The notes below the pieces were generated by a model. It worked only from the letters and a program-made list of their open reading frames with translations, did not search any database and had not been told where the DNA came from. From an uncultured Bacteroidales bacterium (lineage in GTDB: Bacteria; Bacteroidota; Bacteroidia; Bacteroidales; Muribaculaceae), in NCBI GenBank assembly GCA_945829225.1, contig CALZTY010000001.1, positions 62,001 to 126,000 of the forward strand: a stretch of DNA of 64,000 nucleotides. Direction: 5' to 3'. Below, piece after piece: positions 20,609 through 35,407 of the stretch (positions are counted from its first letter, which is position 1; each line of letters starts with the position of its first letter). Position numbers and translations under genes: made by a program.

Positions 20609-20912
20609 GGTTATTAGTTAATTTGATTAGTTATTTGGGATTAATAATTAGTTGCTGAGTCGGTCAAACAGTTGTTTTATGTATTAAGGTGTAGGGAATA
20701 GCCCCTATACCGTTGCAAATGTACGATTTTTTTTCACACGATACAATTATTTTGCGTGAAAAAACTGCAGAGGGTCAAATTTTAACAATTATTGAACTTA
20801 GCCATATCACATACGCGATATTATATTGCCGTTTCTTGGCATCCAAAAATATTTCAATCATTAAATGCCTAACATTTTTATAAAAAGAATTGCACAATAC
20901 TGAATAAATTAC

Positions 20913-20920
20913 TAAATTTG
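20913..20920 (+). promoter_or_regulatory. Candidate -7 element TAAATTTG for the HTH-NTase operon
   Basis: Matches TAnnTTTG, 53 nt upstream of the ATG; weak -33 (ATTG) about 20 nt upstream. Confidence 0.5.
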
Positions 20921-20972: not shown

Positions 20973-21485
20973 ATGCGACCTCAAGATGTAGTTATTTTGC
21001 TAAAAAAAGTGTCAGCAGCAGGCAGGAGTATAACAAACAGTCAAATGGCAAAAGAGCTGGGCATAAGTGCTTCAGAAGTATCAGAGTCTTTAGAGCGGAG
21101 TCGGATTGCACGATTGATAGACAGCAGAAAACAGCGAGTAAATATACTTGCGCTACAAGAATTCATAGTTCATGGATTGAAGTATATATTTCCGGCATAC
21201 CCCCAATCAAAAGTAAGGGGAATAGCTACTGCAATATCAGCGCCTCCAATGAATCAACTTATTCAGTCAGGAAAAGAAGTGTATGTATGGCAAGATTCAA
21301 AGGGAGACCTAAGAGGCGAATCAATAACACCGCTATACAAAACGGTCCCTATGGCAGTGAAGGAAGATACAACATTATATAAGTTGTTGGCGCTAACTGA
21401 TGTTTTCAGAATGGGGCGTGCAAGGGAAATAGAAATTGCCAAAAATGAATTAAGCGCTATATTATCGAAGTATGGAGAACAATAA
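20973..21485 (+). CDS. Winged/HTH-domain protein, putative antitoxin/regulator of the adjacent nucleotidyltransferase
   Basis: N-terminal HTH (SITNSQMAKELGISASEVSESLERSRIARLI); overlaps the NTase gene by 14 nt. Confidence 0.65.
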   Translation: MRPQDVVILLKKVSAAGRSITNSQMAKELGISASEVSESLERSRIARLIDSRKQRVNILALQEFIVHGLKYIFPAYPQSKVRGIATAISAPPMNQLIQSGKEVYVWQDSKGDLRGESITPLYKTVPMAVKEDTTLYKLLALTDVFRMGRAREIEIAKNELSAILSKYGEQ

Positions 21486-22164
21486 TTTAGAAAGATTGCT
21501 TCTAATAGCCGAGGGACTTGGAGAATTAATACACAAGGTTGTATTTGTTGGAGGCTCAGTAGCTGAGTTATACGCGGATGACCCGGCAGCGACAGACATA
21601 CGTCCGACAATGGACGTAGACTGTGTAATAGACATAGATAGTTACAACGAGTTGCAAAGTTTTGAACGGTCGCTCAGATTGCAACATTTTGTCAATGACA
21701 CAGAATCAGGAGTAATATGTCGATGGCGTTACAAAGGAGAAATTGTGGATATAATGCCCAGCGACAAAAATATTTTGGGCTTTACAAATCAGTGGTACAA
21801 ACCCGGTATTCAGCAAAAGATACAATACGTTATAAATACTAATGTTTCACTAAACATATTACCGGTGCTTTACTACATAGCAACGAAGATTGAAGCAATT
21901 AAAGGCCGCGCCGGAGAAGATCTAAGGGTGTCGCACGATTTTGAAGATTTAGTATATATATTGAATAACCGTCAAGACATTTTAGTATTATTTGATAATG
22001 ATAAAGATATTGATCTTAAAAAGTATATTTCAATTTGGTCTCAAGCAATGATAAATCGACCTAATTGCCGAGAAGAAATAGAATGTATGCTTCCATATGG
22101 TGAGTATGATCGTACAGATCATATTCTCAAGATTCTACATCATTTCGCTCAATTAATATGCTAA
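21472..22164 (+). CDS. Nucleotidyltransferase-fold (AbiEii/MNT-like) protein, putative toxin
   Basis: VVFVGGSVAELYADDPAATDIRPTMDVDCVIDI resembles the GG[S/T]...DxD signature of NTase-fold toxins. Confidence 0.65.
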   Translation: MENNNLERLLLIAEGLGELIHKVVFVGGSVAELYADDPAATDIRPTMDVDCVIDIDSYNELQSFERSLRLQHFVNDTESGVICRWRYKGEIVDIMPSDKNILGFTNQWYKPGIQQKIQYVINTNVSLNILPVLYYIATKIEAIKGRAGEDLRVSHDFEDLVYILNNRQDILVLFDNDKDIDLKKYISIWSQAMINRPNCREEIECMLPYGEYDRTDHILKILHHFAQLIC

Positions 22165-22205
22165 GTAGAATGTAAGTCGAAATGGGGTGGGGTGGTGAAA
22201 AAAAT

Positions 22206-22236
22206 TTTGAGGATACGGGGAAAAGTTGTATTTTTG
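22206..22236 (+). promoter_or_regulatory. Bacteroidetes-type promoter for RSH gene (TTTG-N19-TATTTTTG)
   Basis: TTTG 22206-22209, TATTTTTG 22229-22236, exact 19-nt spacing. Confidence 0.75.
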
Positions 22237-33992: not shown

Positions 33993-34853
33993 TTAACTAA
34001 AATTTCCGCTTAAGCACGAAAGAATATAGTTCGAGATTATATTGTGTATCTCCTTAAATGTTGGTAACTCTATGTTTAGTCTGCGTTTATAGTTATTCCA
34101 TTGGCGGTTCAATTGAATATCTTCACTAAACGCATTATCGAAGAAATCGTTGTCTTCTGTAATTATTGTATTGCGGTTTTTTATCGTAGCGAAAATAGCT
34201 TCTCGTATTTGATTACTATCGAATGTGTGTACTGTTATTATTCTGTATAAATCGAAATAGTCTTTCATCCTGCTATTGAATCGTCCGCGCTCAATCATAG
34301 TTTGAAATTTCTCGGCAATGACTGTCTCTAATGAATAAGCCATTATTTGTGGTTCTTCCATAGAAGAAATGATTGTTGGATACCATATCTCGATTGGTCC
34401 GGGCACTATTATGTCTCCGAATCCCACATCCATGGTTAGTTGCTGTCGGTATGTACCTATTCTGCCTACGAGGCTTATTCTCACGCCCGGATATTCTTTT
34501 TCTATGGTGATATCTTGTGCCGTTATTGTGTCTGTTTGAAACTCTATTCCATCTTCCGGCGTTTCCATTGAAGTAATTTCGCGGAATACTCTTACGATGT
34601 TTGACTTGTTATTGTCTATTGCTTTGCCCGCAAAGTCTATGTCAATAGTCGGTCGTGGAGTGAATTCTTCGAACGCATATAATAATGAACCTCCTTTCAG
34701 TATCAAATGCTCCCTATATTTGCTTTTTGATAATCTGTATAGTATTCGCTCATGAAAGAATCGAACAATCAGTTGTTGGTATGTTTTGTTGTCTCCTCTC
34801 GCTATGTTCAATATTTTTGCTTTTATCGACTGTGCCTCTCTTGTTTCTTTCAT
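33993..34853 (-). CDS. AbiEii/AbiGii-family nucleotidyltransferase (putative toxin)
   Basis: LILKGGSLLYAFEEFTPRPTIDIDFAGK (GGS..RxTxDIDF signature); ATGA overlap with the upstream gene. Confidence 0.88.
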   Translation of the reverse strand: MKETREAQSIKAKILNIARGDNKTYQQLIVRFFHERILYRLSKSKYREHLILKGGSLLYAFEEFTPRPTIDIDFAGKAIDNNKSNIVRVFREITSMETPEDGIEFQTDTITAQDITIEKEYPGVRISLVGRIGTYRQQLTMDVGFGDIIVPGPIEIWYPTIISSMEEPQIMAYSLETVIAEKFQTMIERGRFNSRMKDYFDLYRIITVHTFDSNQIREAIFATIKNRNTIITEDNDFFDNAFSEDIQLNRQWNNYKRRLNIELPTFKEIHNIISNYILSCLSGNFS

Positions 34854-35407
34854 AGTTTTATCTGTAAAATCTGTTGGAGCGTTGAATATATGCGCATAAG
34901 ACGGGCATATCTGCTTAGTCTTGATAAATCTCTGCCCGGAATCTGCAAGTAGTTATCAATTATTTCTACCATTACATCTATTCCTATCTTATTTCGGTAC
35001 TTTATTGCATCACACACCGATCGTTCTATATCGGTCATTGCTATCTTTTTGTCTTCTATTTCAATTATTGCTTTACCTATTTCAAGCAATTTTGCGCGTT
35101 GAAATACGGGCTTTATAGTTGGAAATTGAGGAAGACTTAGTTTGCGTGAACGTTCCACTGCTACATAGTAAGCTCCGGGTACTTGTGTGGTGAGATTGTA
35201 GTATCGCCAAGCCGAATACAAGCATAGTATTCCTCCAGGTACAATTGTTTCGATATCTATTGTATCCCCCATCAGTGCTTCCGGCTTGGCATACAGCCCA
35301 TTGCGAAGTTTGATTAGTCCTCCTGCTTGGGCGGATGCAAGTATTTTGCGGTATTCGCCATAATTTGCACGATTTACCCGTATTATGTCGCTCTCGTTAT
35401 TTGTCAT
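34850..35407 (-). CDS. AbiEi-like wHTH antitoxin/transcriptional regulator
   Basis: N-terminal wHTH (GGLIKLRNGLYAKPEAL), AbiEi-like central domain (MTDIERSVCDAIKYRNKIGIDVMVEIIDNYL); partner of AbiEii. Confidence 0.82.
   Translation of the reverse strand: MTNNESDIIRVNRANYGEYRKILASAQAGGLIKLRNGLYAKPEALMGDTIDIETIVPGGILCLYSAWRYYNLTTQVPGAYYVAVERSRKLSLPQFPTIKPVFQRAKLLEIGKAIIEIEDKKIAMTDIERSVCDAIKYRNKIGIDVMVEIIDNYLQIPGRDLSRLSRYARLMRIYSTLQQILQIKL

Follow-up and report, generated by a model that had tools for sequence, protein, structure and literature searches.

The window (the whole 64,000-nt stretch of DNA that was analysed) carries an overlapping gene pair, A and B. The pair is related, as a two-gene form, to a catalogued phage-defence candidate and is predicted to consist of a nucleotidyltransferase (NTase) of the MenT/AbiEii superfamily, B, and a distinct antitoxin, A. 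We think it fairly probable that the pair is an autoregulated toxin-antitoxin (TA) or defence module in which A represses the operon and holds B inactive, likely through phosphorylation of Thr46 of B, and that in relatives a phosphatase re-arms the toxin. Three points are new with respect to the first-pass annotation of this DNA: an operator conserved among relatives, a Thr of B that is invariant and a putative phospho-acceptor, and a phosphatase as the third gene of relatives.

Results

The gene pair and its neighbours

As shown in Table 1, the two same-strand open reading frames with a 14-nt overlap described in the first-pass annotation are both present, and their conservation as proteins across phyla places the gene pair far beyond chance. 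Three relatives, L002, L003 and L076, have the same 14-nt overlap; in most of the others the overlap is shorter. The AT-rich character attributed to the block was borne out: A and B have GC contents of 40.0% and 36.5%, the window as a whole has 52.8%, relA 53.5% and the LRR protein gene 56.0%. The latter is the upstream neighbour of A, on the opposite strand, and relA is the downstream neighbour of B, with no room for a phosphatase gene between B and relA at this locus. As relA has a promoter-like site of its own, read from the sequence, the module ends at B and the unit consists of two genes only. The genome assembly has 2.27 Mb and is 99.9% complete, and the closest named matches of B are from Muribaculaceae.

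Table 1. Features of the A-B locus, in positions of the window.
Feature	Position	Strand	Description
Putative Bacteroidetes-type promoter	20890..20920	+	-33 TTG (20890-20892), 20 nt, -7 TAAATTTG (20913-20920)
Operator-like palindrome TTTGCAAATCGCGAATTGTGAA	20917..20938	+	Overlaps the -7 box TAAATTTG
Gene A (PDC-M21A)	20973..21485	+	170 aa; winged-HTH and own C-terminal domain; predicted autorepressor and antitoxin
Gene B (PDC-M21B)	21472..22164	+	230 aa; MenT/AbiEii-like nucleotidyltransferase; predicted toxin
Overlap of the two genes	21472..21485	+	14 nt; putative translational coupling
B motif I, GGS (G27 G28 S29)	21550..21558	+	GG invariant
B R44-P-T46-M-D48-V-D50	21601..21621	+	Catalytic DxD and putative phospho-acceptor Thr46 (21607-21609)
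B third carboxylate, D93 (in VDIMP)	21748..21750	+	Invariant
B motifs III/IV, K139...R146...D150...S154-x-D156-x-E158-D159	21886..21948	+	Invariant
relA promoter-like site, TTTTG-N19-TATTTTTG	22205..22236	+	Read from sequence

Relation to a catalogued defence candidate

In PADLOC-DB, A matched PDC-M21A (E 9.9e-48, model positions 57-202 of 205) and B matched PDC-M21B (E 1.3e-47, 6-229 of 234), so that two adjacent genes match over most of their length at about 1e-47 each. PDC-M21 has the components A, B and C and the status of an unvalidated "phage defence candidate" in PADLOC-DB v2.0, and such candidates originate from a guilt-by-embedding screen (PMC12988326). The pair had been proposed as an uncharacterised TA or anti-phage candidate, and it stands as a TA or defence candidate, but one that was already catalogued as PDC-M21A/B. 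Component C, a PP2C protein, is not in the window, where relA is the next gene instead; hence, we claim the pair only as a two-gene A+B relative and not as a full three-gene member. In the literature searched, which did not include bioRxiv, no publication was found that names PDC-M21 or gives its fold, mechanism or validation, nor any on an NTase-PP2C TA system.

Fold and active site of B

B alone gave nothing useful against Pfam, NCBIfam, PHROGs and the sequences of the PDB, and its link to known families was obtained through PADLOC, a profile of B proteins and the predicted fold. The predicted structure was confident (pLDDT 91.9) and produced four PDB matches at E<=0.001, all of them MenT1 of Mycobacterium tuberculosis (best 8an5, E 1.1e-5, probability 1.00), with MenT3/TglT among the weaker ones (E 1.4e-2, probability 0.99). 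The TM-scores to MenT1 and MenT3 are moderate, about 0.5, and these two are the closest solved structures of the model, in agreement with the NTase fold suggested earlier. MenT1 was also matched by sequence with the profile of 18 B proteins (E 3.7e-4), in an alignment that covers motif I and the DxD, the distal motifs aligning weakly, and that places Thr46 of B on the Thr of MenT1 "RFTRDVD". G27, G28, R44, T46, D48, D50, D93, K139, R146, D150, S154, D156, E158 and D159 are invariant in the 18 homologues, a set of residues that includes the GG, the DxD and the third carboxylate noticed earlier from the letters.

Two homologues of B, L065 (27.8 bits) and L066 (23.6 bits), exceed the cut-off of PF08843 (AbiEii; 22.5 bits), which window B does not match, and many plasmid homologues carry the NCBI pipeline label "AbiEii/AbiGii toxin family". 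B is a divergent branch of the AbiEii/MenT superfamily. Of the idea of a separate NTase lineage, the partner unrelated to AbiEi is sustained, but B itself falls inside that superfamily.

The pair shares with MenAT1 and MenAT3 (TglT-TakA) of M. tuberculosis the NTase toxin fold with an antitoxin partner gene, and B has the same R-x-[ST]-x-D-x-D with the acceptor two residues before the first Asp, as well as the Lys and distal Asp motifs. However, MenT1 is only 17-18% identical to B in the structural alignment, MenA1 (7.4 kDa) is smaller than A, and an operon-linked phosphatase is not reported for MenAT in PMC11375011 or PMC7205606. With AbiEi/AbiEii, the type IV TA system AbiE, the pair has in common an HTH gene followed by an overlapping NTase gene. 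The motifs of the AbiEii encoded in the window are collinear with those of B, which is 56 aa shorter. This canonical AbiE pair, AbiEi at 34850-35407, which had been noted before, and AbiEii at 33993-34853, occupies an AT-rich stretch of the window at 33993-35407 on the minus strand, and it is real and a different module from A-B. Apart from B, three AbiEii matches to PF08843 occur in the genome. In MNT/HEPN type VII systems an NTase is likewise part of a two-gene module, but there it is the antitoxin, whereas B is the predicted toxin and has no HEPN partner.

Gene A and its probable operator

The predicted structure of A (pLDDT 94) shows an N-terminal winged helix and a C-terminal domain, as the earlier reading of an N-terminal HTH with a distinct C-terminal domain had it. 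Against the PDB, the model of A had no match at E<=0.001; only weak winged-HTH matches were obtained, none of them to a solved antitoxin, and the C-terminal domain is unmatched there. A homology of A with AbiEi (COG5340) was rejected, since hhalign gave a probability of 0.4% against the AbiEi of the window and there was no AbiEi match in PADLOC or Pfam; the AbiEi structure 6y8q was also absent among the 50 structural matches listed for A. The regulator is therefore not of the AbiEi type, in line with the first-pass annotation. In each of the 20 loci compared first, B is immediately preceded by A, and the same order was found in every locus examined.

The -33 and -7 boxes of the putative promoter were called with the Bacteroidetes consensus. 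The palindrome at the -7 box is imperfect in the window (16/22) and not significant alone; it has the same register as in the relatives, three of which, all Muribaculaceae, have a perfect 22/22 palindrome, TTTGCAATTCGCGAATTGCAAA, at the same place. The operator motif is unique in its own genome (one match in 2.27 Mb). Of 41 loci, 32 contain a spaced pattern, TYC-N4-TYC-N2-GRA-N4-GRA, at 10 or more of its 12 positions, whereas shuffles gave 1.3 on average and never more than 4. This count is descriptive because the pattern was composed after viewing the same sequences, though the excess is large. The half-sites are of TTCGC type in Bacteroidota and Cyanobacteria, and TCC/GGA in most Proteobacteria. 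The conservation of a palindrome at the operon promoter suggests that A is likely an autorepressor binding over the promoter, and, as the operator occurs across phyla, the repressor role of A can be approached independently through it.

Thr46 of B

All 38 B proteins compared, which come from four phyla, have a Thr at the position of Thr46. In MenT1 and MenT3, phosphorylation of T39 and S78, respectively, within the motif described above, is caused by the antitoxin and inactivates the toxin (PMC11375011, PMC7205606). The superfamily in general has Ser or Thr at the phospho-acceptor position (PMC11375011), and the residue may be structural. T39A mutants of MenT1 and S78A mutants of MenT3 remain toxic, and no phosphorylation occurs in MenT4 with its antitoxin. 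MenA1 also sequesters MenT1, whose activity is reduced by T39A (PMC11375011). Since the residue is kept superfamily-wide and the T39A and S78A mutants are still toxic, the conservation of Thr46 allows, rather than proves, control of B by phosphorylation. A phosphatase that re-activates MenT has been postulated without identification (PMC7205606).

A phosphatase gene after B in relatives

In Proteobacteria, a PP2C gene, the PDC-M21C of PADLOC, overlaps or abuts the end of B, with PF13672 matched in the PP2C of L064 and L067. Among nine proteobacterial loci chosen on B alone (L064, L067, L068, L069, L116-L119 and L122), eight have PP2C and one a metallophosphoesterase; six further plasmid loci (L110-L115) were chosen for their PP2C match and carry that sampling bias. 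By our reading, 37 plasmid records appear in both match lists, and in each of them the PP2C comes after B in the same orientation. The sampled PP2C proteins retain the acidic metal-ligand motifs, except for a truncated copy on an Azotobacter plasmid (L118, 3223-3657), cut to about 144 aa next to intact A and B.

A metallophosphoesterase with complete motifs is the third gene in Bacteroidales L002, L003, L072 and L005 and in Legionella L068. The Bacteroidales protein of L002 type is also found after AbiEi-AbiEii, with a 0-nt gap, at L185 (G022:C8, 55-2095, minus strand), from the same genus as the window, and this locus may represent an AbiE variant of three genes. Downstream genes were judged by eye, without a profile scan, at 30 canonical AbiEii loci from relatives, and a directly adjacent phosphatase was found only in L124, the same locus as L163 and L185. 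The same metallophosphoesterase family follows a third NTase family at L178, L181 and L161 (locus read as L180). These NTases have about 258 aa, an R-A-T-x-D-I-D motif and their own upstream partner of about 310-340 aa, for which two proteins tested gave no PADLOC match, and together the two genes may form a toxin-antitoxin family of NTase type not described before. At L187, such a set with its metallophosphoesterase is inside a type I restriction operon, between HsdM and HsdS. At L175 (G073:C50, 3029-4430), the gene after A encodes the metallophosphoesterase, with about 34 residues left of B joined to it in frame, a sequence arrangement that reads as deletion of the toxin domain with regulator and phosphatase retained. 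The position of a phosphatase directly after B, AbiEii and the third NTase suggests that the operon-encoded phosphatase of these relatives is a toxin-reactivating enzyme.

In the tree of B, the PP2C loci form one clade (98/96), the metallophosphoesterase label needs at least three changes, and window B groups with three metallophosphoesterase-bearing Muribaculaceae loci (100/100). By this placement, the window pair lacks a phosphatase that its closest relatives possess. The two-gene form is also that of most Bacteroidota examined and of all sampled cyanobacterial and Deinococcus copies. A metallophosphoesterase query gave no match at E<=1e-15 elsewhere in the genome of the window. As the window copy is without a phosphatase, the re-arming part of the mechanism is not directly applicable to it.

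Distribution and mobility

The PDC-M21B profile was matched in 7 of 118 relatives, the own genome included, and at E<=0.001 in 20 of 398 genomes of the phylum, several of these being weak partial matches. Of the further same-genus genomes listed in this search, 20 in all, none had the pair, and the stretch upstream of relA contains different genes in nearly all of 20 same-genus relatives. A core syntenic locus was rejected on these two grounds, and the pair is accessory and, as its composition had led the first-pass annotation to propose, horizontally acquired. The A-B order also occurs on plasmids of Cyanobacteria, Deinococcus and Proteobacteria (116 plasmid records). As to a phage origin, a search of 50,697 phage records gave no match. 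At L070 (G098:C3) the pair is inside a type I restriction operon, with HsdS directly after B and then a PtuA-like ATPase; the window copy lies outside any defence island. In a Porphyromonadaceae MAG (L004, 7658-8626), A is truncated and B lacks its N-terminus, by frameshift or assembly error.

Discussion

The mechanism we favour can be laid out as follows. Free B would block growth, and its closest structural relatives make the addition of nucleotides to tRNA ends the most likely means. A would bind the palindrome overlapping the promoter and repress the operon, and would also keep B inactive, most likely by contact leading to the phosphorylation of Thr46 beside the DxD, in the manner of T39 of MenT1 and S78 of MenT3. 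In relatives, the PP2C or metallophosphoesterase of the third gene would strip the phosphate from this Thr and re-arm the toxin; the window copy, without a phosphatase, would rely on a host phosphatase, on new toxin synthesis or on antitoxin loss.

The same NTase toxin and antitoxin could instead work without any phosphate switch, with A neutralising B by stable, type II-like binding or acting by repression only, Thr46 being structural or catalytic, and the phosphatases acting elsewhere (for example on modified tRNA ends or some nucleotide signal, or as anti-phage effectors of their own). We regard this as unlikely, despite the sequestration of MenT1 by MenA1 with the lowered activity of T39A (PMC11375011), the superfamily-wide Ser/Thr, two unrelated phosphatase folds that need not have a common substrate, and the metallophosphatase defence systems DS-8 and DS-9, of unknown target (PMC13092281). 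Against it, one metallophosphoesterase family follows three NTase toxin families whose upstream partners are unrelated. In addition, PP2C enzymes typically act on phospho-Ser/Thr, and together the two facts argue for a shared substrate connected with the NTase. A much less probable reading makes B a small-molecule nucleotidyltransferase similar to the aminoglycoside ANT enzymes, or else gives it a housekeeping role under a regulator of its own. ANT(2'') structures do appear in the fold search of B, but lower (E 0.036), the best MenT1 match being over three orders of magnitude better, and the constant pairing with A, the patchy accessory distribution and the Pfam AbiEii matches of homologues make such a role very improbable.

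Compatible with the phosphate-switch mechanism is that the module serves anti-phage abortive infection, with B released by a phage trigger, rather than acting as a TA module of stability or stress; this may be so, though we would not presume it. AbiE, of the same toxin superfamily, is an anti-phage system, PADLOC lists PDC-M21 as a phage-defence candidate, and the place of the L070 pair in a restriction operon favours defence. On the other hand, the window copy is located between the LRR gene and relA, with no defence island, and the abundance of plasmid copies fits defence or maintenance of the element equally well.

Taken alone, the window pair adds modestly, being a two-gene form that lacks the phosphatase, and the interest comes mainly from its relatives and from what they indicate on a phosphatase partner of the NTase. 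For MenT toxins, the switching off by the antitoxin through a phosphate on the active-site Ser/Thr is known, and for the switching on a phosphatase has been postulated (PMC7205606). Tentatively, the NTase toxins of the MenT/AbiEii type might have a phosphate on/off switch at the active-site Thr, with the PP2C or metallophosphoesterase of the operon as a dedicated re-arming phosphatase, two unrelated folds having been recruited, one of them common to three antitoxin-toxin families. If the phosphatases adjacent to PDC-M21B do re-arm the toxin, a ready-made operon would make the switching on testable, and a catalogued defence candidate would gain a mechanism.
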